From Plicaturopsis crispa FD-325 SS-3 (Eukaryota; Basidiomycota; Agaricomycetes; Amylocorticiales; Amylocorticiaceae), in assembly GCA_000827205.1 (NCBI GenBank), contig KN832574.1:1-64000 (forward strand): a stretch of 64,000 bases of DNA, given 5' to 3'. Under the pieces are notes generated by a model that saw only the letters and a program-made list of their open reading frames with translations, made no database searches and was not told the origin of the DNA. Position numbers and translations under genes: made by a program. Below are positions 35,782 through 64,000 of the stretch, in pieces (position 1 is the first letter of the stretch; each line of letters begins with the position of its first letter).

Positions 35782-36947
35782 TCAGTGTGCGATTACTGTA
35801 CTATTCCGACCAAGTCTTCGGCCATTGTGACCTGTGACCACGGCCGAAGAGATGGACATCTCTTCGGGAGCGAAATTTTGCTGTGACAAGTCCGAAATCT
35901 CGAGAAAAATTGCTATTTCGAGCCTATTTTAGAGCAAATTTGTGACATTAGGAAAATTTGTACTCTTCGTATGCCAATGTGACCGTGACATTCCGAAAAT
36001 CTCTTCACTTCGAAAGGCGCTGTGACCCGTGACCCGAAGACTTGGTCGGAATAGTACAGTATGTCCATAAGCACCTCGGTTGCGTGCGGGAGCTCGCCAA
36101 GCTTGGCATTGGCGATGAACCTGCGCAGCACGTCAGAGGACTTGAGCGCATCCAAATGCGCGAACAGGAACTCCAGCACCATCTCGCGAATCTCGGAGAA
36201 TCGACGCAGAAAAAAAGTGGCTCGTGAGTGACACGCGCGAGCAAGGAGGAGAAGACACACAGTGCGGTGAACGTCGAGAACACTTCAGCGACGATGACGT
36301 CCTCCGAGAGCTGCATCTTGATGCTCTCCTTCGCGGCCGCGCAGAGCTCGGTGAGGCCCAGCTAGTGTAGTGCATCCGTGTCAGCGCCAGACACCACGCA
36401 TCATTTCGAATGTAAACGTCGCCTACCCGGTCCGCAAGCCTATACACCGACTTGGGCGACGCCGCCACCGCGGACGTCTCGCCGCTCTTCACACGTCGCA
36501 AACGCGATCTTCGACGTGTACATATAGTACAACACCGCATTCCAGCTGCAGCGAGCGGTCAGTAGACCCATAAATAGGGGCACGCACGTCTTGTATTGCT
36601 CCTCTACTTATGCGACATCAGTGACCTGATACACCGTTTCCGGGCTGTGCGCGCACGTTGGCTCAGCGCTGAGGTCTTGTGTAGGCGGTGGCGTCAGGCA
36701 TACGGTTCCCCGCGCAGAGTACAAGTTAGCCTGAATACAACGTAGGAAGCCGCGGATGGACATGCCGTAGCGCGTGCTATCTTCCGAGCCAGCGTCTGAT
36801 TGCGGGTGGAACGTTAACTTCTCCTCCGCGGTGTGCACCTTGACGTCGGCCTTCGCATCGTCTTCGCCGTTTGTGTCCTCGTCAAGGTCGCTGTCCTCGG
36901 CGTGGTCGTACTCGGCTACGAACGACACGCAATCTGTGTGCTCATCT
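35782..36947 (-). pseudogene. Decayed second BTB-domain gene, cut by the assembly gap
   Basis: On the minus strand this region repeats the C-terminal half of the BTB gene at 30920-32594: EYDHAEDSDLDEDTNGEDD, WNAVLYYMYTSKIAFA, ASPKSVYRLADR, LTELCAAAKESIKMQLSED, VIVAEVFSTFTA and LGELPHATEVLMDI. Three defects are visible against the paralogue: a one-base frame change after SKIAFA (near 36490), loss of the AG acceptor before FSEIREM (TGCGTCG near 36207, where the paralogue has TGCGTAG), and a mariner-like MITE inserted in the Ile codon five codons before the stop. Taking the MITE out leaves ...VLMDIIAH and a stop at 35784-35782, identical to the paralogue. The 5' exons fall in or beyond the N gap, so the start is unknown. 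Confidence 0.8.
35796..36059. mobile_element. Tc1/mariner-like MITE, 264 bp, TA target duplication
   Basis: The element has long inverted ends, CTGTACTATTCCGACCAAGT plus CTTCGG on the left and the complement on the right, with TA directly repeated at 35794-35795 and 36060-36061. It has no ORF of its own. Internally it carries TGTGACC/GTGACC repeats and a CGAAGAGATG...CATCTCTTCG foldback near 35842-35868. It interrupts the last codons of the decayed BTB gene. Confidence 0.85.
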
Positions 36948-37469
36948 NNNNNNNNNNNNNNNNNNNNNNNNNNNNNNNNNNNNNNNNNNNNNNNNNNNNN
37001 NNNNNNNNNNNNNNNNNNNNNNNNNNNNNNNNNNNNNNNNNNNNNNNNNNNNNNNNNNNNNNNNNNNNNNNNNNNNNNNNNNNNNNNNNNNNNNNNNNNN
37101 NNNNNNNNNNNNNNNNNNNNNNNNNNNNNNNNNNNNNNNNNNNNNNNNNNNNNNNNNNNNNNNNNNNNNNNNNNNNNNNNNNNNNNNNNNNNNNNNNNNN
37201 NNNNNNNNNNNNNNNNNNNNNNNNNNNNNNNNNNNNNNNNNNNNNNNNNNNNNNNNNNNNNNNNNNNNNNNNNNNNNNNNNNNNNNNNNNNNNNNNNNNN
37301 NNNNNNNNNNNNNNNNNNNNNNNNNNNNNNNNNNNNNNNNNNNNNNNNNNNNNNNNNNNNNNNNNNNNNNNNNNNNNNNNNNNNNNNNNNNNNNNNNNNN
37401 NNNNNNNNNNNNNNNNNNNNNNNNNNNNNNNNNNNNNNNNNNNNNNNNNNNNNNNNNNNNNNNNNNNNN
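36948..37469. other. Assembly gap of 522 N
   Basis: The sequence is unknown here. Gap size may be nominal. The 5' part of the decayed BTB gene is probably inside it. Confidence 0.99.
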
Positions 37470-37627
37470 ACCGCCGTATATACATGATAACTGATCTGAC
37501 ATTCCGCTAGAATACCGCCTCCGGTTGGGTTGATCTCGTGAAGACTCGTGTCGATCTAGGAACATTTTGATGTCAATGTGCAACGGGAATCAAGAAATCA
37601 TAATTGATCGAGGACGGCGGGAATGTA

Positions 37628-43077: not shown

Positions 43078-43114
43078 GCGTTCTTTGGTGCACTTGTTCG
43101 CAGCCAAACAACAG
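43078..43114. repeat. 37-nt foldback repeat, copy 2 (degenerate, inverted)
   Basis: GCGTTCTTTGG, loop TGCACTTGTTCGCAG, CCAAACAACAG. The loop is the reverse complement of the loop of copies 1 and 3, so this copy lies in the other orientation, with three stem mismatches. Confidence 0.7.
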
Positions 43115-43175
43115 TTCCGAGTCGTCGACCGGTGCTTACTTGCCAAGGTCGGAGGCAAATCGACGATGATGGGAG

Positions 43176-43212
43176 GCGTTGTTTGGCTGCGAGCTAGTGC
43201 ACCAAACAACGC
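43176..43212. repeat. 37-nt foldback repeat, copy 3
   Basis: GCGTTGTTTGG, loop CTGCGAGCTAGTGCA, CCAAACAACGC. The 11-bp stem is perfect. It lies 61 bp after copy 2. Confidence 0.85.
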
Positions 43213-43916: not shown

Positions 43917-44973
43917 TGGTGATAATGGAGCCGTTCTATATATCTTTGTGGCCCAGTCTTCAGCCCCAGCTCAGGACATGCGCTGCTTGCTCTAATGTGG
44001 GGAGGTAACAGGTGCAGTCGAATGAAATGAAATGTCATAGGTGCTAGACAACTTTTTAAGGGCGACCACCCAGCCTCGCCGACGTCCAGGATCACGTCGT
44101 CGATGGTCGCGGATGGTGTTGGCGTGGTTTTCGTCCGGCATGAGACGACGGCTGTTTGGACTAGTCACTACGGAGGCTAGAGGCCCATTTGCATGATGCC
44201 TCGGTTGAGATGATGAAGCCGCCGCGCAGGACTCGGACAGTTGTGCGGGTGCGTGGTGGCACAGTACCAGTCGCGACGGTGGTCATCTTGCCGCGCTCAG
44301 CGAGGGATCCAGTCGCTGCAAGTCGTCGAAGTATCTTCCTCCCTCGAGTCCAGAGAGAGAACAGCCCGAGCTGTGGTAGTCTCTCCTAGACAGATCTAGA
44401 CACCAACACTCGTACCTCCTTCTGTAGAGCTGTGGGTGTACTGGAGCGGAAAGATTGGCCTGTAAGTATGTAGTGCTGGGCAAGACTGGGCAAGACAATA
44501 TTAATAGTAAGAGCACTTTTCACTGCAACGAGGTTCGACGCGACGAAGAGAACGCGCTCATGAAGGTTTCGGCGCGTGTCTCTTGTCCGGAACCATTTCA
44601 CTGTGGCCGATGTCGTTCAGCACTGGTTCAGCAACTAGTACTAGTACTGCAGCTGTTTTTACTGTGCGAGTCCTAAAGCAGGACCTGTCACCCGGCACTA
44701 GCTATCAGTCGACTTCGAACAACACCTTGGGCCGTTATGGGACAAAGGAGGAGCCTCCAGAAACCAGGGCGCATGTAGTGCCCCAGTGGCCTAAGCACTC
44801 CCTTGTGCGCTCTCCACGTTTCGATATCGTCGTTGGCGGCCACCGAGACCTTGAACGCTTTCTTTCATACTCGCTTTGACCTGCTTTGAAATAGCCTTAA
44901 ATACCAAGAGGACGAGCGACATCCATGGCATCTATATTCACTGCAAAACATCCCCTGCAAACACCACACGATC
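43917..44973. other. Intergenic stretch, nothing recognised
   Basis: No ORF of plausible composition. A near-palindrome CAGCAACTAGTACTAGTACTG lies at 44629-44649. The last 100 bp are the leader of the SET-domain gene. Confidence 0.35.
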
Positions 44974-46595: not shown

Positions 46596-49538
46596 TCAGT
46601 GACCGGCACTTTGAGGCAAATGTATACCAATGTACTTTTCGGATTCTGGATATGCGCGCGTTTTCAATCGGAAACCATCCAACTCTACACCGGGCATGGT
46701 TCGAAAGGCATCTTCGTTCGGGGCCGCAGGTATCACGTACTCTCCGTGCGCGCAATCTTTGGAGGTTGACCAGTGTCCCCATGGTTTAGGCGTGTCCGAG
46801 TCGGCATCTATATGTGCTGTTTTCGTTGGATTTCGGTGAAACACATAAGGATCATCGTGGAATAAATCACGGTTGGAAGAAGTACGGCGAAGGGCTGAGG
46901 TGGGTGATCCTGTACGCCGCGCTTCGAGCGTGTAAAGCTGACTGTGTTCGACGGCGGTAACTAATATATGATGACATCCGTGAGAAGGGAGGTGCTGAGC
47001 AGACATAACAAGCTTACTCATGAAGAAAACACGTCGAACAGAACAGTTCAACTGACCACTTGGCATGTGCCCCGTACATCCAGTGACTATATTTTCAAGG
47101 TTGTGCGATAAGTATGCATGCACGGGGTTGGGTGTCATAGACATCGCGATGCTGGGAAAGGCTTTCTCGTAGAGTACCGTCGACTGCCAAAAAGTTGGAT
47201 AGCCGCTTACAATGTGCAAAGAAATTGATTAGTACTGGCTCAGAACGATGTAGAGACAGGTACTCACTCCTTGTACCCAACAAAACGTGACGAAATCCCA
47301 CCTTTGTTCGTCTTTAAGTTTGAAGCTTCAGAATGGGCGTCTGCTCGGAAGTTACATGCTTCCCATATTTTGGTAGCGAGATTGCAGATGACCGTGTAAT
47401 TTGAGGCGTTGGCCTCAAGTGTAGCGGGAAAACTGCACGGGTAATCAACATACACGACGTCGCCCAGTTCCGGCCTAGTAGGGTGGTCAGGGAGTTGTTC
47501 CGAGGTGATGTACGAATCTTCAATTTGGAAGTAGGGCGCCAGCATCGTCCTCAAACTTGGCCAACACTGGGCACTTTCCGTCATTCCCGTGGTCGCTGTA
47601 TTCCAATCCTCGTATATAGCGGTGAATGCTGACTGAGGGTTGTCGAGAGCTCGGCCATATGCACTAGAAGAATGGTCTGGCAGGTTCCAAAGCGGACTGA
47701 GGATGATGTTAAGTGCTGGGACACCTTTTCCTCCCACTGTTTGAAATCTTCAGTCAGTATGCCCAGCTCGGGCTTCGAACGGATGGCCGCTACATGACAT
47801 ACGATCAAAGTTCACAGACGGCCCCGAAGAAATTCTGGGCCAAACTGTGAGCAAACTATGAAACCTTTTGATGTACGAGCCCGATGAGTATACTAGCAGA
47901 ACGTGAGTGAACAATCTGTTGACACAGCGTTTTTGAAGATACCAGCGTATGTGCTCAAAGGGGTTGGTTGGTACACGCATCTGCTTAATGTAGCATCAAA
48001 CCTTAACTTGGCTCGCAGTCAGTGTCAGATAACATGAAGCAGGCAAATAAACATAGTCACAAAATAGCCACGCGTTACCGGCGGAGCACGCATGTCGCTG
48101 TGGACAAGATACTCGAAGAAAGACTGGATCCACGCAGTGGATGGTGTTCGTGAAATGTTCTTTGTGAGTGGTTTCGATGATACTCACGTACATATCGGCG
48201 ACCTGTTTGAGATGAGATTACTTTTCGCTGATGGCATATAAATAACGAGGTACTACCATTCGCAAAGCTAATCGTACACGCTCTCGTACTGATAGCCCAT
48301 AGGGATTCTCAGGCGCTAAGACGGCACTGGCGAAGTAGGGATCTATACATACGGGTGAGCATTGAGCCATGCTATGTGATCTAGTCAGAAAAACACTTAC
48401 GGTCATCTACAACGACGAATCTTGGTCTAGAAGTCTGGCTTGATGCACCGCGGAACTGGACAACATTTGGGTGACTGTAGTTTGCACTATGAGAATCAAG
48501 ATCCACGGGTATGTCGCGGCCAGTTCTCACTATGCATCCCGGTAGCGGTGAACTTCCGCAAGGAAATCCTACAACAACGACTCAGGCTCGATCAATGCAA
48601 GCGTCAATATCATGCTAATAACATACCATGGCAGCTATATCCCGCTGGTACTGCAAGAAGAGGATGGACGTGCCGTCTGCTCGTAGTCGAGCCCGATAGA
48701 TATTTGAGTATTGAAACTCGTCATGATCAAGGCTCTTATGTGTCGCTTCCACTTCCAACAGCTCGATATCTTCTGGTTGAAAAGTCGCGTAGTCCTGGCG
48801 TCGGCTCAGCAGGGGAAGATCGCGGGCGGAAGAATGCGAACTACCCACCTGTGACTCAGCGACCGCCGAAGCCATCTGGATGCGTACGAGCGAGTTATAC
48901 TGGCCTTAAAATGAGTGAAATGCCCGCATAGAATAGCACAGCATCGTACGGAAAACTCTCGAAGTCTATCGTCCAAAGCCCGCCGTTGTTGCAGGATCTT
49001 CTCTTTATCGGCAAGGCTTAGTATGGCACGAAAGAAAACATGTCGCTGGGTGATCTCCGCCATTTCGGAAGAGACCCGTACGAATACCCTGGGAATGTAC
49101 GTCAGTCATACGGCGTTTTTCCGCGGGAGATACAGCAGCTATCTCACGGAATCAGATCCTTCAAATCGTGCAACAGAGCCTCGGTGGTGGGCGTCTTGGG
49201 AAAGTTCATGTCGTGGATCCAGTTCATGGTCGGGAGGACAAGCCGAATGATTCGCGCCACAAGCTCATCGGCGTCCTCCTTGTTCGTGCGTGCGTCCTGA
49301 GCAAGCGGAATGAGGTGCTGAGGGTCCGAGCTACAATCGGCTAATGGATGCGCACCTTCGCTGTCTCGACACAGACTAGGAGGGCGCTCGCGACGTTACT
49401 GACAATCGTCACGTTCGCGATGTCGGCTGCCGCCTTGACCGTCTTCAACGTCTGTATCGTAGCGAATAGGGTGTCTGTTGCCGAGGGAATAGCGTGAGTT
49501 ACCCGTCGTCGGAAGACACGTACGACTTTGAGCGGCAT
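46596..49538 (-). CDS. MLKL-like four-helix + pseudokinase-like protein, copy A
   Basis: The gene starts at 49538 and its first exons are 49538-49356, 49296-49148, 49088-48950, 48899-48849, 48794-48627, 48568-48531, 48474-48401, 48342-48257 and a 15-nt exon 48202-48188; clear later exons are 47736-47277, 47205-47018 and 46960-46596. Exon lengths 183, 149, 139, 38, 74, 86, 15 and 188 are identical to copy B at 54666. Residues 1-157 have the pattern of the MLKL/HeLo-like N-terminal helical bundle found in many Agaricomycete proteins (TLKTVKAAADIANVTIVSNV, ADKEKILQQRRALDDRLREF). HPNVVQFRGASSQTS resembles the kinase alphaC-beta4 segment, but no VAxK lysine is visible. The C-terminal domain (LGDVVYVDYPCSFPAT, VICNLATKIWEACN) is unrecognised. 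The segment between 48.0 and 47.75 kb does not resolve cleanly, so whether this copy is active is uncertain. Confidence 0.7.
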
Positions 49539-50524
49539 CAGTGTTGAAAACTAGGCGAGGTGAATGGTGGGTATGAGGAGTGGGGAGTAGCAGCGATGGG
49601 GGGCTGGTGCGAAAAAGGGAAGACAATAAGGCTCGAAGTAAGACGTGCTGTGGCACAGCAAGGGTAGAAGGCGGTACAGGTTTGCGATGCCATGAACGCA
49701 CCCTGCTTCGAATTAGCGCCCGATTGCTATATCGGAACATATAGACGCACTCACCTGCAGGACTACACGAGGCCGGCCTATCGGCAGGACAGTCCTCTGC
49801 CGACCCGCGTGAGGGGCAATGTCGAAAAAAAAAACGCACTCTTGCGAACACGGGTCTATCGGTGCGATTCACGGGCTTGAACGCTGCGTTTGAGGCGAGA
49901 ATAAAACTAAGCCCAAGCGTCTATGGATATGGGCTGACGGAGACGCCAAGGTGGCAGGCAAGTCAAGGAAGTCCAGTGTCATCTTTCGAAGTACACAGGA
50001 TGAAGCACATGATTGCCCAAGGCGTCGTAGTACTTGCGAGATTTGATATCGATCTGTAGCGTAGCGGACGAGGGGCCAGTCGCAGAAAACGCGCCCGCAG
50101 AGCAGGCGACTTCGATGGCTGCACAGAAACGGCCCTGCTTTTCACGGCGATAAGCACTGGAGACGCCATGGAGTCGTTAGCGCGCGGGCGACGGGCTATG
50201 CGTAGCCTGGACATACCTAGACACGGACGTTTGAGCCTCCTCGTGCCCTCCATGTGGGATTAGACATCGAATCGAATCAAAATGTCGCAGGGGGCAATTA
50301 CAAGGCCCTACATATGAATATAACGTGCTGCGTCGTCAGCGATATATATAGTATACTACAGGTGGACAGATGCACGCGTCGTGCAGCTGGGCATAAGTGA
50401 CGGGCGCGTGCCTCTAGCACGAGCCGTCAAGCTCCAGTAATTAGGTGTGGCGGTGAGAAGGGTGCGCAAAGGGCGCGGGTAGCGGCGTCGGCCTCGTCTT
50501 GCACGAGCTTCGTATGGTCAGCAC
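49539..50524. other. Upstream region of copy A and unassigned DNA
   Basis: About 200 bp before the copy-A start (to about 49730) are homologous to the region before copy B: both share GCGCTAATTCGAAGCAGGG and CGCAAACCT. The rest, 49740-50524, has only short frames and no recognised feature. Confidence 0.45.
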
Positions 50525-51034
50525 AAGGTCAGCAAATACGCGTCATGATGCAACGAAGAGCCTGCTGCATACGCGAATGAGCCCACCACACACACGCTAG
50601 GGAGAACACGTACGAGGGCCGTCCTTCAGAAGAAAGAATCATGCGAGTCCTCTCCCAGCGAGGAGGGCACGGACCATTGGTATCACCGACGCCCACACAA
50701 GATTGCGAACGCCAGTACGAATGCATGCAGAACTCGGAGATCCACGGCCTATTTGAACGACACAGAGCACGCCTCCACACGGTGGTCGTACCACTTGAAG
50801 GATCTGGACATACACACGTTGACAGTTTGCCAGAGCCTTGATCTCCGACACCGTGACGCGACGTTCCCTTGACTCAGTTTTGCAGCTACACGTGTAGTCA
50901 TTGAACGGAAAATGAACGCGCCCATTGGTATGTCACGGAGAGAACCAGGAGACAGCCTGAGAAGTAAGCAGACAGCATTGACAACAGATCTGGATCAAGG
51001 CAGCAAAATACGACTCGGACGAGAGGAATGGCAG

Positions 51035-51071
51035 GCGTTGTTTGGTTCACCTGCTCGAAGCCAAACAACGC
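51035..51071. repeat. 37-nt foldback repeat, copy 4
   Basis: GCGTTGTTTGG, loop TTCACCTGCTCGAAG, CCAAACAACGC, with a perfect 11-bp stem. It was duplicated together with its surroundings; copy 5 is the counterpart in the inverted copy. Confidence 0.85.
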
Positions 51072-51654
51072 ATACGAGGTTACCAATTTCGGACTTGAAC
51101 CTTGAACTTCTCTCTCCGACTCGCGAGGCGCATGCAGAGATCAAACTTCCAATCCTCTTTCAAGTCAATGCTCAGTACTCGAGTACAGCTTCCTTGCGCA
51201 ATCCAAGGACAAAGCCTTTCGCCCTCAGCATGTCTCGATGATGCGATGACTACGAGCGACACCCCGGCTTACCAGCCTACCACTGCTGGAACAAGGCGAA
51301 CGGATATTGAAGCATGATAAGTTCGGAGACGGATGCACGAGAATGGGCAAAAGGACACGCATGTCTTGGCCTTGCGGACATGTGGTCAGCGTATTCCCAG
51401 TGCGTTCCTCAAGTTCCTCTTGGATATAAACGAGCTCACGATTAAGGCCTTACGCGCGAACAAGTAGGCGCGAGTGGGCGCCTTTCCCTTCGCTACTCCT
51501 TTTACCTCGTCGCACGCTGCATGAGGAGTATTGCCGTTCTTGCCGCACCACGCCAACCTGTCTGACAGTGAAGACGACGCCATCATCTACGCTCTGATCA
51601 ATCCCCGGTCAATGCGACGATATACCTGTGTACGGATGGCCTAACGATGGCGTT

Positions 51655-51738
51655 CGTATGCATCTGCAGCCGCGACCGCGCTCGTATGCATCTACAGCCG
51701 CGACCGCGCTCGTATACATCTATAGACGCGACCACGCT
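51655..51738. repeat. 28-bp tandem repeat, three units
   Basis: The unit starts CGTATGCATCTGCAGCCGCG and ends ACCGCGCT; units begin at 51655, 51683 and 51711, the third with four changes. It lies in the part of copy 1 missing from copy 2. No coding sense is apparent. Confidence 0.8.
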
Positions 51739-52747
51739 CGGCACATTTGGCCACGCAACTCACAGCACGCCAAACAAGATGGGAAGCAAGTTCGGCCTTA
51801 CATTACTATTGAGGATGGGTACGGGCCTGGCGCCCTACCAGTCGACATAATTAAGTATAGAAATATCATATTTTCAAGACCGAGCACGAAGGGAACGTCC
51901 TCTGCAACCGTGACGCGCACGCTATCACCCGACACCCGTCACCCGTCCTTGCAACCCTCGTACCGCGGCTCTCGACAGCAAACGGAGGATTCGAAGGTCT
52001 AGAAAACAGTGGGATTGTGTATATGTCATTATCGCCTGGTGCGTATTTACGACACGCTCGTCTCGTTCTGCAACGACACTTGCTACTTATATGCGCCGAC
52101 CGTCCTTCCACCGTACATGCGAGCACATCGCGATTCCGGCCGGCCTCCCCGTCGCGGCCGACTATCTCCCCCCTCGGGTTCCGCTCGTACCACACACACA
52201 CTGTGATTGTGACTTCGGGATCTAGCGCACCCTGCGACTTCTGGATCCAGTGCCACTACGCGGATCCACCGCCAACACGCCCCAGGAGAATAGGACGACC
52301 ACGGTAGCCTCATACAGCGCACTGGCCAACTCGTCGATCGATTCTGGGTATACGCAGATTGGGCATGGCGGAACCTTCCCAAGGTGTATCTTAATTTTAG
52401 GCGGGGCGGACGGAAGGATGTACACTGGGAGCACGTCCGAGGCCTTATACTGGGACAATATTGACGGATTTCAATGATACGCGCTCAAAACGACTTATCC
52501 AATCCTCTGATGGTGACATCCTCGCCGCGACTGAGATGCGCCCGCGCGATACGGTCGATCATGCACGGCCAGAGTGCAATGACGTGGATATGGATCGTTG
52601 AGCTCGTTGTGCAGCACGGACAACGTAGGGAGAAGAACATGAATTACGGCTTGCTCGCTGCTTTTGCGCTTTCTACGGAGGCGAGGGGCATGTGCAGAGG
52701 CGTGTACATGTGTGGTTGCGCGGAAGACGATGCTTTCCCGGCGCCCT

Positions 52748-53230
52748 TCACCACTCGCGATAATGCTCCGAGAACACCGTCCGGAACTCGCTATGCTCGA
52801 CGCCTACGAATAAATGAGTAGCCAAACTTCTCAAAAAGACGCGCAGACACGTACCAGAATCGTCCAGCAGCCTCTCCACGCTTGCCGTAACCTCGTTCGG
52901 CTCAAACTCGTAGCTCGGCGGGACGACACCGCTCACGAGGTTCTCCTCGTACAGCGCCACGTCAAACACTCTCTTCCGGTAGTGCGAGCACGCAACGTAC
53001 TTGTCCCCGGCGAACGTACCGTGAAAGCCGCACCCGACGCCGCCGACCCTGCGGACGGCGGCGCTGATGGTGACGAGGATGGTGAGGGAGTGGTATTCGT
53101 CCGGGAGGAGCGGAGGGGCGTCGGGTCCGCGGAGGGTCGTGGCCCAGGTGCAGGCTGCGGCTGCGGAGAGGACGAAGCCGCAGCGTAGGCTTTTGACGGT
53201 CGTCCGGGGACGCGGGGTGGTGGTGGTTAT
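52748..53230 (-). pseudogene. Unknown small gene, copy 1, start codon changed
   Basis: Minus-strand exons 53230-52855 and 52803-52748 read TTTTPRPRTTVKSLRCGFVL, ATTLRGPDAPPLLPDEYHSL, TILVTISAAVRRVGGVGCGF, HGTFAGDKYVACSHYRKRVF, DVALYEENLVSGVVPPSYEF and end VEHSEFRTVFSEHYREW. About 143 residues, family not recognised. The homologous copy at 62226 begins with ATG, but here the same codon is ATA and no other in-frame ATG precedes the conserved part. The 3' exon is complete, whereas copy 2 has a different tail. So copy 1 probably lacks a normal start but keeps the ancestral end. The promoter is shared with the PD-(D/E)XK-like gene on the other strand. Confidence 0.65.
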
Positions 53231-53393
53231 CGATAAGTGTGAGGACAGGTTGCAACGCGGTGATGGTCAAGATGGACGCGTCGACGCGTCGCACGAGGCG
53301 CGTGTACGTAATCTCCACAGCGTACGCGCGAGCCGCGTTCCCCAGTGCTTTGACGCATCTTTCTCTCGACATCGACCCGGATCGTATCCAGAC
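53231..53393. promoter_or_regulatory. Divergent promoter with GACGCGTCGACGCGTC palindrome, copy 1
   Basis: The 16-bp palindrome at 53275-53290 contains two ACGCGT cores (the MluI cell-cycle box bound by MBF in fungi). The following GCACGAGGCGCG and TACGTAATCTCCACAGCGTA are conserved in the other two copies at 58191 and 62158 (reverse). It lies between two genes transcribed outward. Confidence 0.6.
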
Positions 53394-53945
53394 AAGGTCG
53401 GGTGGCCCAACTTCATACACACCGCATACAACGCCATCCAACACCCCGACCTGAAGAATTCGTGCTACGGGCTCTGGAACATGATCCTCTGCGAGCTGTT
53501 CCCAGCCCACGATGGCTTCGTCGTCGCACCTCAAACCTCCGACCCTTACTCCAGCAATAACTCAGTCGAGATTGCCTAAATCGTCCGGCGGATCAAGTCC
53601 AATCGTCCTGTCCTCTTCCTCGAGGTGAAGCCCCCATTCCACCTCGACCATCCCTCCCACCGAAGACGCGCCGACGCCCAAGTGCGCGAGCGTTTCTACT
53701 CGCTCTGGGTCCCTGGCATCCCTGGCCAGGTCCTATATGGTATCAGTGCGATCGGCACCACGTTCGCCGTGTATACGCTCGAGAACGACAGGATCACTCC
53801 TGTGGCGACTCCTCGGTCTGACGATGGAATGGTGGATGTCGCGCCGGGGGATCGATGGGAGCACGATTTGGTAACGGATGGGGACCACGTTTTAGAGGGA
53901 ATCGCGGCGTCGGTGAAGAGTGCGTCGCCGTCCCACGAGGCCTAG
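53394..53945 (+). pseudogene. PD-(D/E)XK-nuclease-like accessory protein, probably decayed
   Basis: The plus-strand reading WPNFIHTAYNAIQHPDLKNS, CYGLWNMILCELFPAHDGFV, VAPQTSDPYSSNNSVEIA, then RPVLFLEVKPPFHLDHPS, RRRADAQVRERFYSLW, VLYGISAIGTTFAVYTLEND and DVAPGDRWEHDLVTDGDHVL is a family common in Agaricomycete accessory regions. Its Asp...Glu-x-Lys core (FLEVK) resembles the PD-(D/E)XK nuclease fold. Here the codon aligned with the ATG of the copy-2 relic (61989) is AAG, and an in-frame TAA follows SVEIA at 53578. Unless an unseen intron or start exists, this copy is not translated normally. The role of the family is not established; a nuclease-like fold is an inference from the motif. Confidence 0.6.
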
Positions 53946-54665
53946 GGGAGGGGCAGGTAAGTTTGAGCGGTTAGCTCGTTGGACCGGAGCTGACATGAAT
54001 ATCGAACACGCGATATCAGTGATTGCCCTCTTCAATGAATGTGGCAATAATCTCATAGCGAGCGGCGAACGCGTACTCGACTATCTCTCCTGCGCCTAAT
54101 CCAATGCGAGCGAGCTGCAGGCGCCTTTCTCGCGACCGTGCTCTAGGCCGTACGTGGTTCAATATGGCACGATTGTTATATCGGGAGCTTTACAGCGCCC
54201 TGAGAAATCACCTGTGTCTTCCATTATATTGCACTGGGTTAGCATAGGCTGGCATAGAGTGCACCGCAATTACTCGACTGCACCTTCGTTCTGTGCACCC
54301 GTCGGTGCCAGTCTCGACACGTTCATAGAATTTGGATTCCGCTGCATTTCATTCTTGGACTGACAACCGAATATAGGTCAACTTGAACGCGTCGCTCCAA
54401 TAAGCTCCTGCCTTTCGACGATGCCGGCCTCATGTCTGCCTGGGGGTGGATCCGTCTAATTTCTGCGTGTCGATGCTGTGATTGCGCGCTAATTCGAAGC
54501 AGGGAACAGTGGTTATGGCAGCGCAAACCTATGTTGTCCTCCCGGGGCCCGATATCGATGCCATAGCCCGCTTGGCCTCGAAGCCTTATTATCCTCCCCG
54601 TGCCAGCTGCTACTCCCACACGCTCTTGAGTCCTACCATCCACATAGCTTCTCTCAGAAACTTTC
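53946..54665. other. Intergenic and promoter of copy B
   Basis: The last ~200 bp share blocks with the copy-A upstream region (GCGCTAATTCGAAGCAGGG at 54485). No other feature is recognised. Confidence 0.45.
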
Positions 54666-57600
54666 ATGGCAATGCTTCGAGTCGTGCGTGTCCTCCAGCG
54701 ACGGGTTCCAAACGCTCCCTCGGCGACAGATACTCTATACTCCGCTATACCGGTGTTGAAGACCGTGAAGGCAGCGGCCGACATCGCAAACGTGTCGATC
54801 CTCGGTAATGTCGCTAGTGCCCTCCTGGTATGTATCGAAACAGCCAAGGTGTGTACTCAGCTGCTGAGTGTAGTCGCGACTACCAACGCTTCGATTTTCC
54901 CGACAGGATGCCCGCGCGAATAAGGAGGACGCTCTCGAACTAGTCGCCCATATCGTTCGGCTTGTGCTCCCGACCATCAATTGGATCAAGGACATGGAAT
55001 TCCCTACCTCAGCCGTCGCCGAGGGATTGTTGCACGATCTGAAGGATCTCATCCCGTATGTCGACCAGTTCATGATATATCTTCGCTGCTTGACTAGCGT
55101 GCCTAGGGTATTCACACAAGTCTCTGTCGAGATGTCGAAGATCACCCGGCGAAACCTTTTGTTTCGAAGCTTTCTCAGTCTCGCAGATAAGGAAAAGATC
55201 CAGCAACAGCGCCGATTCTTGGACAACAAGCTTCAGGAATTTACCGTGCGGTTTCCTTGAGCTGCTTTCGCATGTGTTTTGCTCATCTCGCGGGCAGTAC
55301 AAATCCGACATGCGCATCCAATCTTTAGTAATGGACTTAAAGAAGATAGTCTCGGACATTGATTCGAGGCAGATAGTTACCCGGGATATCGTCAGAGAAG
55401 TACTGCCTGTTTTTTTCTTCTCTTCATCGTGCTGAACCTGCGCTAGGATTACACGATCGTGAAGCAGGAGGACGTTGATTTATTGGAAGAGGACCGTGCG
55501 TGGCATCTGAAGAAGGGTCGTGTCTTGCGCGCTCAATTTCAACCGGACAAAAAGCCACTTCGCGTTTTCGCGTACAAGCAAGGCATTTCCACTGAGGTGC
55601 GCGATCATTTGACTGTACGCAACTGGATTTCAATGTTCTTTGACTCGGGACGCTAAAGGAATTCTTGGCCGAAGTTCATCGCTACCGATTCTTCTTGTGA
55701 GTACTTGGTAGAATGCAGCTCCGAGTCTTGATTTCCACACGAACATTATAGCCACGCAAATATCTCGCAGTTCCGTGGTGCATCAAGTCCTACGTCTCCC
55801 TCAAAGTTTGTAGTTTTTGACGATCGTAAGCCTATACCAATGCTCGCGGCATGTCTCATCTTGCTCACCTGTGCTTTCAGATCCCTATGTTGTTCGTGAG
55901 GTGCTAAGACCTGGTAATCCCTGTAAACTATCGATACGAGAGCGCGTGCGATTAGCTTTGCAAGCGGTAACATATCTGCTCTGGCATATGTGGGCAGATA
56001 GACTAATTCGGTGTGTTGTAGACCATCGATCTCTGCGTGAGTATCCAGACTATATGTGATCGACCGCTTTCTCAACCGCGCGTGTCTAGTCAGTGTCTCA
56101 TTATATGCACGACAATGAAGTTCGTCATTCCGTTTGGGTAAATGCCTGCGAGGTGAGTATGCGTCATCCTTTAGACCGCACATTCTCTAACATTCAAGAC
56201 GAGTGAAGATTAGACTTGATACTGCATTGAGCAAAGTTGTGTTCCAGCCACCTGTCTCTGGGTTAGACAGAGGACGCAGTAAGCATATGTTGCTCCCAGT
56301 TGAATACTGCATTAAGGCTAGCAGATTTCTCACATGTATTTTATTCTAGAGGATTTTTCGGCCAATCTGATACTGTGCACACTCTTGGAAAGAGTACGTT
56401 TCATGCCAATACCTTTGAGACGAGCCAAAATTCCTCATTGCGCAGTACAGGCAACGCCTTATTATGGAAGCGGTGTGTTCTGTTGCGATCATCTGCCAGC
56501 TCAAGTTATGCAAGTTCACTTTGTGTTGCAGTGAGATCCTGGCGCAACATCTCCGCACTTGACGTAATATTAGAGTCGCTATGGCTCTTCAGAAGATATC
56601 ATGACAATCAGCCTTTTGAACGAACTGGGGCCATATTTTCCGAAATACTAGAGGACTGGATGTCTGCAACCGCTACAATCACAGAGAGCGCCCAGTTGCC
56701 GAGTTTGAGGATGATCCTCATGCGCCACTGCGTACTCTACGATACACCCATTGGGTGTGAAACACGGGTCCCTACACTTGATCTAGGTGATGTCTTTTGT
56801 GTCGAGTATCCTTGCTCGACTGTGTCTACTGGAGCCGAGGCGAAGTACACGTTCATCTGTAATATCGCTACAAAAGTATGGGAGGCATGGAACTTGCCAC
56901 CGCTTTCGACCTTCACACTCGACCGTGATCCGTTGGCCCTATGGAGACATCGCGGACCTTTGTGAGCACCCGTCTCTTCTTTAATATCAATCTAGGGACT
57001 GCTTATGATTTGCCTCATGCGTGTAGCATAGGAAATAACGACGCTTGTCGATCCTCTTACTGGAAGTCATTTTACCCTGACGGTGCAAGGTATCCTCGAG
57101 CGGAAGGTGCTGCCCGTTTACAAAAATACTTGTCAGACAATCTTGAGGGTATAGTGGGATGTATCGGTGACCTGGGCGCTCAGAGCACTCCCGTTCGACG
57201 TGTTCTGTTCATGGGTAAAATCCTCATTTCTGCATTCTTATTCGTGTGCTTACATTTGTGCGCTGTGAGGCTAGTTACCGAGGTGACGCGCAGGATAACC
57301 TCCAGGATCCGGGCGAAGCCTCTGAAGCCTCGTACTCGCGAAGCTCTTTCCTCGGCAAGCGGTATTGAGAACAGCAACACAGATGTCGACAGCAGCGGTG
57401 GTCCATATTGGTTTCACCCTAATCCAACGATATCCGCAGAAACAGACACACCTAACTCGTGGGGATACTGGTCAACATCTCGGTTCCCAAAATGGGCACC
57501 TCCAGAGGAGCGCGGCGAAGATACAATCCCTACCCTGACCGACAAAAAAGAGTTCGAGAGGTTGATTCTAAATGGTTCTGGTGTTGGAGCGTTCATGGAA

Positions 57601-57720
57601 GAAGATTCCAACGATAAGTGTGTTAGTATTTACGTCCCTAAACCATGGGTGGCTGATTTACATCGGTTTTACAGCTACACATACCAAGTTCGAATACTTG
57701 ATGAACGCGTCATTCTTTGA
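54666..57720 (+). CDS. MLKL-like four-helix + pseudokinase-like protein, copy B
   Basis: Sixteen exons: 54666-54848, 54907-55055, 55107-55245, 55298-55399, 55447-55596, 55659-55696, 55752-55825, 55881-55966, 56022-56036, 56090-56152, 56209-56278, 56325-56393, 56446-56472, 56532-56961, 57027-57214, 57275-57720. Their sum is 2229 nt, an exact 742 codons plus stop with no internal stop. Residues 1-157 are helical, amphipathic and MLKL/HeLo-like (VLKTVKAAADIANVSILGNV, ADKEKIQQQRRFLDNKLQEF). Residues ~190-310 resemble a kinase N-lobe (VKQEDVDLLEEDRAWHLKKG, NISQFRGASSPTSPSKFVVF) without a VAxK lysine, HRD or DFG, so pseudokinase-like. Residues ~390-742 (LGDVFCVEYPCSTVST, FICNIATKVWEAWN, NSWGYWSTSRFPKW) are unrecognised. 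In animals the MLKL helical bundle permeabilises membranes under control of its pseudokinase; any such role here is inference. Confidence 0.8.
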
Positions 57721-58119: not shown

Positions 58120-58270
58120 TGTGCAGTGGGAGTGGTGGTCATGGATATTCGTGAGCTGAGTACGACACGGCGATGGCCAACATTTTTTTTGACGCGTCGA
58201 CGCGTCAAGGCGCGCCTACGTAATCTGCATGGCGTACGCGTCCGTCTTGTCTTTCCTGCCGTCGAATCGT
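58120..58270 (-). repeat. Relic of the divergent promoter, third copy
   Basis: The palindrome GACGCGTCGACGCGTC is at 58191-58206, followed by AAGGCGCGCCTACGTAATCT and GCGTACGCG as in copies 1 and 2. On the minus strand an ATG at 58142 begins MTTTPTAQGGTRR and stops, matching only the first residues of the small unknown gene (MTTTTP). So a third module once stood here and only its promoter and start remain. Confidence 0.6.
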
Positions 58271-61621: not shown

Positions 61622-61989
61622 GCGAGTGGGCGGGAAATGGTGGGCGAACGGGGAAAGGGAGGGCGACGTGTGTGTACGACTTTAATGCTTTCGAATTGAT
61701 ACAGACAGACAGCTCTTACTTTGCACTTGGCGGACTACATACTGCGGTTAACGTTACTTTATGGAATTTATCATTTTCCAAGTGCACGGAGGACAAGTTC
61801 GACATGGACGCAGCTTAGTGTGGTTAGATAGGCAAGATGCAGTGCGCACAACAGAACGAGGGTCGAACAGAACGAGACTCCGCTCACGCCGAGGTACCCT
61901 TCACCGACGCCGCAATGCCGCAATGCCCCCCAACACCCTCTCCAGGTCGGGGTGCTGTATGCGCTGCGTACGAAGTTGGGCCACGCCAT

Positions 61990-62225
61990 GTCTGGATACA
62001 ATTCGGGACGATGTCGAGAGAAAGATGTGCGAAAGCGCTAGCTGCAGCTGGTGGGAGGGTTCTACAGTACTGCGATCTAGACATTGCAGGTGAAAGAACG
62101 GGAGGGAACGAAAGACGAGCGCGTACGCTGTGGAGATTACGTACGCGCGCCTCGTGCGACGCGTCGACGCGTCTCAATCATCTCGACCATCGCCGCGTTG
62201 CATTTTGTCCTTGGTGCACTTCATC
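61990..62225. promoter_or_regulatory. Divergent promoter with GACGCGTCGACGCGTC palindrome, copy 2
   Basis: The palindrome lies at 62158-62173 between the ATG of the truncated PD-(D/E)XK-like gene (61989, minus) and the ATG of the small unknown gene (62226, plus). It is longer than copy 1 by about 70 bp. Confidence 0.6.
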
Positions 62226-62693
62226 GATGACCACCACCACGCCCCGCACGACCGTCCAAAGCCTGCGCGGCGGCTTCGTCATCTCCGCCTCCGACGCCTG
62301 CGCATGGGCTACGACGCTCCGCGGCCCCGAGCCCGACGCCCCTCCGCTCCTCCCGGACGAATACCACTCCCTCACCATCCTCGTCACCATCAGCGCCGCC
62401 ATCCGCAGGGTCGGCGGCGTCGGGTGCGGCTTCCACGGTACGTTCGCCGGGGACAAGTACGTTGCGTGCTCGCACCGCCAGAGGAAGGTCTTTGACGTGG
62501 CGCTGTACGAGGAGAACCTGGTGAGCGGCGTCGTACCGCCGAGCTACGAGTTTGAGCCGAACGAGGCTACGGCAAGAGTAGAGAAACTGTTGGATGATAG
62601 TGGTGCGTGTTGTTACTGTAATTTTACCGTTTGGGTGCTCACGTCGTTGCAGGTGTTGAGCACAGCGAGTTCCGGACGGGGTGTCGCTCGTAG
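62226..62693 (+). CDS. Unknown small gene, copy 2, new C-terminus
   Basis: Exons 62226-62602 and 62653-62693 give about 138 residues: MTTTTPRTTVQSLRGGFVIS, ASDACAWATTLRGPEPDAPP, TILVTISAAIRRVGGVGCGF, HGTFAGDKYVACSHRQRKVF, DVALYEENLVSGVVPPSYEF, ending VEHSEFRTGCRS. The family is not recognised; it looks soluble and compact, with conserved Gly/Cys/His residues in the middle. Compared with copy 1, the ATG is intact but the last residues (VFSEHYREW) are replaced by GCRS, because the deletion that removed the 51266-52764 equivalent cuts the final exon. It could still be expressed. Confidence 0.6.
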
Positions 62694-62888
62694 TCATCGC
62701 ATCAGCGAGACATGCTAGGCGAAAGGCTTTTCCCCTTAGATTGCGCAGGGAGGCTGTATTCGAGCACCTGAGCGTTAACTTGAAAGAGGATTGGATTGGA
62801 AGTTTAATCTCTGGCCAGTAGCCGCATGTATGATGCGAGTCGGACTGTCGGAGAGAGAAGTTCAAGTCCGAAATTGGTAATCCCGTAT

Positions 62889-62925
62889 GCGTTGTTTGGC
62901 TTCGAGCAGGTAAACCAAACAACGC
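62889..62925. repeat. 37-nt foldback repeat, copy 5
   Basis: GCGTTGTTTGG, loop CTTCGAGCAGGTAAA, CCAAACAACGC, perfect 11-bp stem. It is the inverted-duplication counterpart of the copy at 51035, with one loop change. Confidence 0.85.
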
Positions 62926-63560
62926 CTGCCATTCCTCTCGTCCGAGTCGTATTTTGCTGCCTTGATCCAAATCTGTTGTCAATGCTGTCTACTTATCAGG
63001 CTGTCTCCTGGTTCTCTCCGTAACCCATCACTGGGCGCGTTCATTTTCCGTTCAATGACCACACGTGTAGCTGCAAACCTGGGTCAAGGGAACGTTGCGT
63101 GTCGGAGATCAAGGCTCTGGCAAACATACACTGGCAGTCAATGACGAACAAGGCTGCGACTTCGAGCAGCGCACCTTTTGGCTCCAAAGTGCGATCGCGC
63201 ATGTCTTCCTATTGTATTGACCACTATGATCGGCTGCGTCGCGTTGATCGCATTCTGTTCGACAACGCGTACGCCGTAGATGTCTAGATCTTTGGAGGAG
63301 TACCAGTGATGTTCGCAATCTCGTGCGGGCGTCCGTGGAGAACTCCGTCGATGTCCTCTTTGCTCCACATCCCAAGATTCCGGTAACTGGGTTTCCTGCG
63401 CGAGTCATCTATCACAACGAAAGATTCCTGGTGAGGATTTGCGTTTTTGTTGGGCGGCCCTCGTACGTGTTTCTCTTTCTCTCTGGAGCGTGGGTAGTGA
63501 GCTCAAACGCGTAAGCAGCAGGCTCGTCGTTGCATTCTGACGCGTATTTGCTGACCAGAC

Positions 63561-64000
63561 GAAGCTCGTGCAAGACGAGGCCCAAGAATGCGCGTCCGTC
63601 GACCCGAATCCGACGGCCTAGCGTCCCTTACGACGCATCGCCTTACTACTCGCACCCATGGCGGGATAGGAAACGCTCGGATGCGTGTCCCCTGCCAATA
63701 TACCCGGTGCATCCGATGATCTGCGGTATGAATCATCGCCCGAGCACTGTCGTCGTTTTTTCCGGGCCCGAGTTGACTGTGGCAGCAAGAAGGATTATGT
63801 GGTCAGTGCTGAACGACATTTGGTGAGACATATTCATGCTCGTAACCGTTTTTGTTTTCGACCGACGGCGAGATAATTGACAGACATTGCAGTCTGTGTC
63901 ATGGGCACGCATGAGAAGGCCAAGGCGTGCATGGTGTGATACAGGAGCGCCCAATTTGCCGCAAACAACTCTCCAAATATCATCGTTTTCCTCCATAGAG
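63561..64000. other. Right-edge stretch, nothing recognised
   Basis: Short frames on both strands; no family was recognised. A minus-strand frame covering 63733-63996 (MEENDDIWRVVCGKLGAPVS) may enter the window from the right. Confidence 0.3.

Follow-up and report, generated by a model that had tools for sequence, protein, structure and literature searches.

A mirror-image gene pair in Plicaturopsis crispa encoding three-part proteins with a constrained N-terminus, a kinase-like middle domain and a diverging tail

Introduction

Does a fungus encode its own analogue of MLKL, the animal protein in which, as recounted in PMC12881547, an N-terminal helical bundle is restrained and then released by a pseudokinase? 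The question is raised by a 64-kb window of the Plicaturopsis crispa genome (contig KN832574.1, positions 1 to 64,000), which carries two divergent, intron-rich paralogs, copy A on the minus strand and copy B on the plus strand, arranged in mirror image with their starts facing apart. An initial annotation had described the products as MLKL-like proteins with a four-helix N-terminal domain, a kinase N-lobe-like segment and a C-terminal domain of about 350 residues that it did not recognise.

Both halves of such a protein have fungal precedents in print. Wojciechowski et al. (2022, PMC9815663) describe about 600 basidiomycete MLKL-like (BaMLKL) bundle sequences with an extra N-terminal helix, 'hG'; this set was drawn from NLR proteins, and some of its clusters fall just under family assignment thresholds. 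Fungal HELL domains occur as integral parts of kinase and pseudokinase proteins (PMC12881547). FslK kinases are related to tyrosine kinases (TK) and expanded in Agaricomycetes, and their members are described as carrying all conserved kinase subdomains and as likely active (PMC3937382).

We show here that both genes are intact, that they share one architecture and that their parts are unevenly constrained; kinase ancestry of the middle domain is supported by sequence matches. Our preferred interpretation, which we hold tentatively and rate a little short of an even chance, is that an inverted duplication produced a pair of three-part proteins, each a self-contained switch of the MLKL type made of a constrained helical effector, a dead kinase of the TK or tyrosine kinase-like (TKL) type and a fast-diverging tail.

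Results

Splice models of both copies were built by hand from the sequence alone and checked by script. Copy B occupies 54666-57720 (+) and encodes 732 amino acids in 16 exons: 54666-54848, 54907-55055, 55107-55245, 55298-55399, 55447-55596, 55659-55696, 55752-55825, 55881-55966, 56022-56036, 56090-56152, 56209-56278, 56350-56393, 56451-56472, 56532-56961, 57027-57214 and 57275-57720. Copy A occupies 49538-46596 (-) and encodes 707 amino acids in 15 exons: 49538-49356, 49296-49148, 49088-48950, 48899-48849, 48794-48627, 48568-48531, 48474-48401, 48342-48257, 48202-48188, 48123-48079, 48006-47943, 47892-47803, 47736-47268, 47205-47018 and 46960-46596. Both models run from ATG to stop without an internal stop, the frame of copy A being intact given the junction 47943/47892. 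These open, spliced models bear out the annotated head-to-head pair and the 16 open exons of copy B, and they extend intactness to copy A, for which it had not been claimed.

Every intron in the two models is GT-AG and 47-72 nt long. All 14 introns of copy A pair with introns of copy B in the same order and phase, copy B having one more, and eight exon lengths are identical between the copies (183, 149, 139, 38, 74, 86, 15 and 188 nt). Intron 2 of copy B (55056-55106, 51 nt) is in frame and open, and was considered as a possible exon. It was rejected because the corresponding position in copy A is occupied, in the same phase, by a 59-nt intron that breaks the frame, and because the flanking sequences align without it. 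The last introns of copy B (57215-57274 +, 60 nt) and copy A (47017-46961 -, 57 nt) are, like intron 2 of copy B, divisible by three and free of in-frame stops; judged by eye, retaining the last intron of copy B would bring in a hydrophobic, membrane-helix-like stretch.

The two proteins are similar far above chance: BLASTP of copy B against a copy A model lacking the junction 47943/47892 gave 40.6% identity over 741 columns with an expectation value (E) of 2.9e-146. A search of the 64-kb window for a third copy returned no match better than E 0.2. We estimated nonsynonymous (dN) and synonymous (dS) divergence by the Nei-Gojobori method on the A-B codon alignment, in which 667 codons of the 707 and 732 were compared after gapped codons were dropped; residues are numbered as in copy B, and ranges of pN/pS, the corresponding ratio of proportions, come from 200 bootstraps. 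Residues 1-160 gave a dS of 0.96 and a dN of 0.18 (159 codons; pN/pS 0.20-0.40), residues 190-450 a dS of 1.30 and a dN of 0.58 (252 codons; pN/pS 0.55-0.78), and residues 455-732 a dS of 1.26 and a dN of 0.59 (238 codons; pN/pS 0.57-0.80). In every part of the alignment dN is below dS, but strong purifying selection is concentrated in the N-terminus: the middle and tail have diverged three times as much at the protein level. We judge the A/B duplication to be old. Gene conversion was considered as the cause of the high N-terminal similarity and judged insufficient, since N-terminal dS (0.96) is only somewhat under the values elsewhere (1.26-1.30), yet dN is one third.

The kinase-like middle domain extends over 48794-47528 (-) in copy A (within exons 5-13) and over 55447-56731 (+) in copy B (within exons 5-14). 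The copy A interval was placed by phmmer matches to kinases in the PDB, the copy B interval by alignment to copy A and by joint-profile matches, and both ends, including the boundary with the tail (residue 446 in copy B, 438 in copy A), were set by eye. The two regions are 39% identical. When the copy A region was compared with the PDB up to E 10, 17 of the 18 matches were protein kinases (best E 0.05) and the remaining one was AlyQ. The kinases amount to six proteins: the tyrosine kinases FES, ABL1, ABL2 and JAK1, together with CTR1 and one MAP-kinase-kinase-like protein. A joint profile of A and B, made with an earlier model of copy A, matched kinases only (6/6, best E 0.32), and the reverse of an earlier model of the copy A region matched nothing in the PDB. 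Cut-out pieces of copy A, and of copy A only, matched Pfam PK_Tyr_Ser-Thr below the cut-off (E 0.21 and 0.3). The usual threshold for significance is 0.001, which no kinase match passes. Nonetheless, we take a degenerate kinase fold as the likeliest identity of the middle domain, because the matches are uniform, the alignment from the N-lobe to alpha-E is colinear and the reversed control is empty. The annotated N-lobe-like segment therefore has moderate support, which comes from copy A and the joint profile and not from copy B taken alone.

Within the N-lobe to alpha-E alignment, copy A has HPNVVQFRGA. By eye, the beta-3 (VAxK) lysine is replaced in both copies and neither has a glycine-rich loop; HRD reads HSD in copy A and HSV in copy B, so that its aspartate is kept only in copy A; and DFG reads DAT in copy A and DTA in copy B, with the aspartate at the DFG position remaining. 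The alpha-C glutamate (FLAE) also remains. The initial annotation, which had VAxK, HRD and DFG lacking, was right for the full motifs but not for these single residues.

The N-terminal domain is the most conserved part of the proteins, with 67% identity between the copies over the block that includes the linker. It covers residues 1-157 in exons 1-3 of each gene, at 49538-48950 (-) in copy A and 54666-55245 (+) in copy B. An AlphaFold2 model of the 113-residue piece encoded by exons 2-3 of copy B (54907-55245) has four helices, with a mean predicted local distance difference test score (pLDDT) of 53.7 and a predicted template modelling score (pTM) of 0.33. Helical moments exceed those of shuffled sequences in both copies at residues 66-90 and 96-126 (P 0.001-0.03, uncorrected); at a threshold of P < 0.05 they do not in the other five of the seven segments tested per copy. 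The extreme N-terminus is charged (+4 in copy B, +5 in copy A), and the most hydrophobic 19-residue windows lie at about residues 39-58. These properties and the model suggest that the domain is helical and probably a bundle. A Foldseek search with the model, run up to E 10, returned 93 matches, and not one reached E <= 0.001. Within the best 50 of these, the first is the membrane protein NINJ1 (E 0.94), and the highest probability, 0.47, belongs to the plant NLR Sr35 at rank 6 (E 2.8); with a model of such low confidence, neither match is proof.

Profile searches of the N-terminus found no relative of MLKL. Pfam searches went up to E 10 for copy A and for each of the N-terminal pieces, and up to E 1 for full-length copy B. 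The MLKL_N profile (PF22215), which recognises human MLKL at E 6.3e-61, was matched neither by the N-terminal pieces nor by full-length copy A up to E 10, and HeLo, Helo_like, Goodbye and NACHT_N, families that we presume to be in the library used, were absent from the matches of both copies. The matches that the N-terminus did give in Pfam fall below cut-off and have no bearing on the question (Phage_tail_terminator, 0.26, 0.032 and 0.14; TY-Chap3, 0.089; USH1C_N, 0.11). In the PDB, a two-sequence N-terminal profile gave three matches, none of them MLKL, the best being a murein endopeptidase (E 0.0097); the N-terminus of copy A alone gave 13, again without MLKL, the best being a designed protein (E 0.034). 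The best hhalign alignment to human MLKL is a gapless diagonal of 87 columns pairing MLKL 52-138 with copy B 96-182. At this fixed register (offsets 42-44, picked post hoc), 13 of 500 shuffles scored as high, which is weakly suggestive; the top-scoring diagonal of the whole comparison is a different one, which 198 of 500 shuffles reached. The region around 'RRNLLFRSFLSLADKEKI' may also resemble Agaricomycete MLKL_NTD sequences, a likeness given no weight here. Kinship of the N-terminus with MLKL is thus not established from sequence. Of the four-helix, MLKL-like domain annotated for residues 1-160, what stands is an all-helical piece predicted at low confidence, next to the absence of a significant match to MLKL in Pfam or the PDB and an hhalign score at the level of shuffles.

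The C-terminal tail comprises about residues 438-707 of copy A (47527-46596, -) and 446-732 of copy B (56732-57720, +), the latter placed by alignment with copy A. The tails are 37% identical and share the motifs GDVxxVxYPCS, ICNxATKxWEA, VRRVxFM, PYxFHxNPT and DTPxxWGxWSTS. Neither matched Pfam, and a tail profile gave four PDB matches, all to N-alpha-acetyltransferase 10 (best E 0.59), which are local and not credible. An AlphaFold2 model of the tail piece 57028-57717, computed with copy A as second row and the last introns read through, was uninformative (mean pLDDT 40.4). Nothing credible was found in IMG/VR either, as the initial annotation would lead one to expect. The start of its 350-residue domain probably consists of kinase C-lobe remnants, judged by eye, which leaves about 270-290 residues without kinase resemblance.

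Relatives were also sought in sequence collections. The copy B N-terminus, run against IMG/VR and by tblastn against plasmids, the tail profile, run against IMG/VR, and the N-terminal profile, run against GTDB genomes, returned none, a result that carries little weight because these collections contain no fungi as such. Copy A matched no NCBIfam family.

The starts of A and B are separated by an island of 5.1 kb (49539-54665). Stretches upstream of copy A (49678-49777) and copy B (54423-54530) are 69% alike, consistent with an inverted duplication that carried upstream sequence along. Four island segments (50490-50624, 50825-51266, 52774-53329 and 53344-53430) recur inverted at 61956-63582, about 1.6 kb, with 77-85% identity, and the island copy of this repeat is interrupted by about 1.5 kb (51267-52773) that the other copy lacks. 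An open reading frame (ORF) at 52751-53266 (-) is conserved, by eye, in both repeat copies, its counterpart lying near 62119-62682 (+). A second ORF, 53380-53942 (+), encodes FLEVKPP, a nuclease-like ExK motif; its likely upstream part is severed by a stop in the same frame at 53577-53579, and it looks like a degenerate gene. Neither 52751-53266 (-) nor the open frame 53580-53942 (+) matched Pfam up to E 0.01. Where the initial annotation named nuclease-like and unknown genes, the island holds a stop-interrupted frame with the motif and an ORF with a counterpart. Two of ten other ORFs of the window matched Pfam up to E 0.01; NAD_binding_10, an NAD(P)-binding family, alone passes its curated cut-off, the second match being weak and of dehydrogenase type.

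Fragments resembling parts of the 61956-63582 repeat (70-76%) lie at 44089-44259 and 58165-58262, and 43078-43212 aligns at 72% with the reverse complement of itself. These may belong to a local repeat family, perhaps remnants of mobile elements. A run of N at about 36900-37500 interrupts the window, and genes there are unreadable as a result.

Discussion

How might such a pair of proteins work? The N-terminus is the most constrained part and the middle is decaying, which points to the N-terminus as the working end. The uneven constraint is what one would expect if the effector is fixed and the sensor parts drift, and it suggests that the job shared by the copies lies in the N-terminus and that the middle and tail are the parts that specialise. 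We infer a bundle fold, membrane action, a trigger and cell death in the following form. At rest, the N-terminal helices would be held by the other two parts, pseudokinase and tail. One of these would sense a signal, which could be a phosphorylation event, a ligand or a non-self partner, and the helices would then be let go to oligomerise at a membrane. The outcome would be cell death in defence or incompatibility. The tail would be an added candidate sensor. The kinase part may derive from the FslK lineage.

Several results weigh against this interpretation. No MLKL/HeLo superfamily family is among the Pfam matches of either copy. The hhalign comparison with human MLKL scored 13.3, a value equalled or exceeded in 31 of 100 shuffles, and reversed MLKL scored 15.3. 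The N-terminal model has low confidence, represents exons 2-3 only and reads through the probable 51-nt intron. The unrelated endopeptidase at E 0.0097 indicates that short profiles can reach E 0.01 by chance, a stronger score than any kinase match attained. Full-length copy A has no Pfam match, and the copy B region has no Pfam kinase match; in the PDB, the copy B kinase region gave one match, not a kinase, and full-length copy B gave two, neither kinase nor MLKL. Since copy B alone retrieves no kinase, it is considered more degenerate than copy A. Finally, a scan of ten other ORFs turned up neither an NLR nor a known death gene as a neighbour of the pair.

The strongest competing explanation, possible and in our estimate somewhat behind the one we prefer, is that these are regulatory pseudokinases of an Agaricomycete-expanded lineage, relatives of FslK or TKL kinases, which kept a helical interaction domain and serve as scaffolds or allosteric partners with no membrane or death activity. 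FES, ABL1, ABL2, JAK1 and CTR1 being the best PDB matches of copy A, and the failure to match an MLKL family, both speak for it, as does the TK-related, Agaricomycete-expanded character of FslK (PMC3937382). However, FslK kinases are described as keeping all kinase subdomains, whereas the middle domain here is decaying, and the constrained part is the N-terminus, which points to that end as the working one.

Rather doubtful is a lineage-specific orphan family whose N-terminus is unrelated to MLKL, whose domain order is coincidental and whose working part is the C-terminal domain or some interaction made by the helical one. The N- and C-terminal domains have no credible match in the libraries and the MLKL comparison is at chance level, as expected for orphans; yet the tail belongs to the less conserved portion of the proteins, which would be odd for a working end, and the N-terminal register agrees weakly with MLKL (the post hoc 13 of 500 shuffles). 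That the proteins are atypical but active kinases is very improbable: the alpha-C glutamate and the DFG-position aspartate do remain, as does HSD in copy A, but by eye both copies lack the glycine-rich loop and the VAxK lysine, copy B has lost the HRD aspartate, and copy B alone matches no kinase.

If the N-terminus is a bundle of the MLKL/HeLo type, the self-contained switch we favour would be an intact fungal protein with the layout of animal MLKL plus a candidate sensor, and the locus would offer a natural paralog pair in which to study how a pseudokinase restrains membrane-active helices. A bolder version, which we regard as improbable at present though worth stating, is that basidiomycetes possess a necroptosis-like system on one polypeptide, with executioner helices, a pseudokinase latch and a diverging recognition domain; the tails of the mirror pair would then sense different signals, and the protein would be a fungal analogue of MLKL with a built-in sensor.

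The pair can be compared with several known systems. The kinase region of copy A most resembles TK/TKL kinases; the catalytic motifs of A and B are broken, whereas FslK kinases are described as likely active (PMC3937382). A and B resemble BaMLKL proteins in having a probably helical N-terminal domain in a fungal protein, and the by-eye register leaves about 42 residues before the region of MLKL helix 1, as the 'hG' helix does, although the best diagonal lies elsewhere. They differ in that HeLo, Goodbye and NACHT_N are absent from their Pfam matches, and in that the partner domain is a pseudokinase, whereas in BaMLKL proteins, which are NLRs, it is a nucleotide-binding domain. With HELL-kinase and HELL-pseudokinase fusions they would share a helical death-type domain joined to a kinase or pseudokinase (PMC12881547); they differ in the added C-terminal domain of about 280 residues, and their N-terminus would be HELL-type by analogy only. 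With animal MLKL, which is activated by RIPK3, they probably share the order of helical N-terminus, linker and kinase-like domain; they differ in not matching the MLKL_N profile and, again, in the additional domain. Searches of an open-licence paper library turned up no account of precisely this three-part protein. The general layout, a helical death-type domain with a pseudokinase, is already in print, and, on the reading we prefer, the added C-terminal domain is the part in which the Plicaturopsis proteins would vary it.

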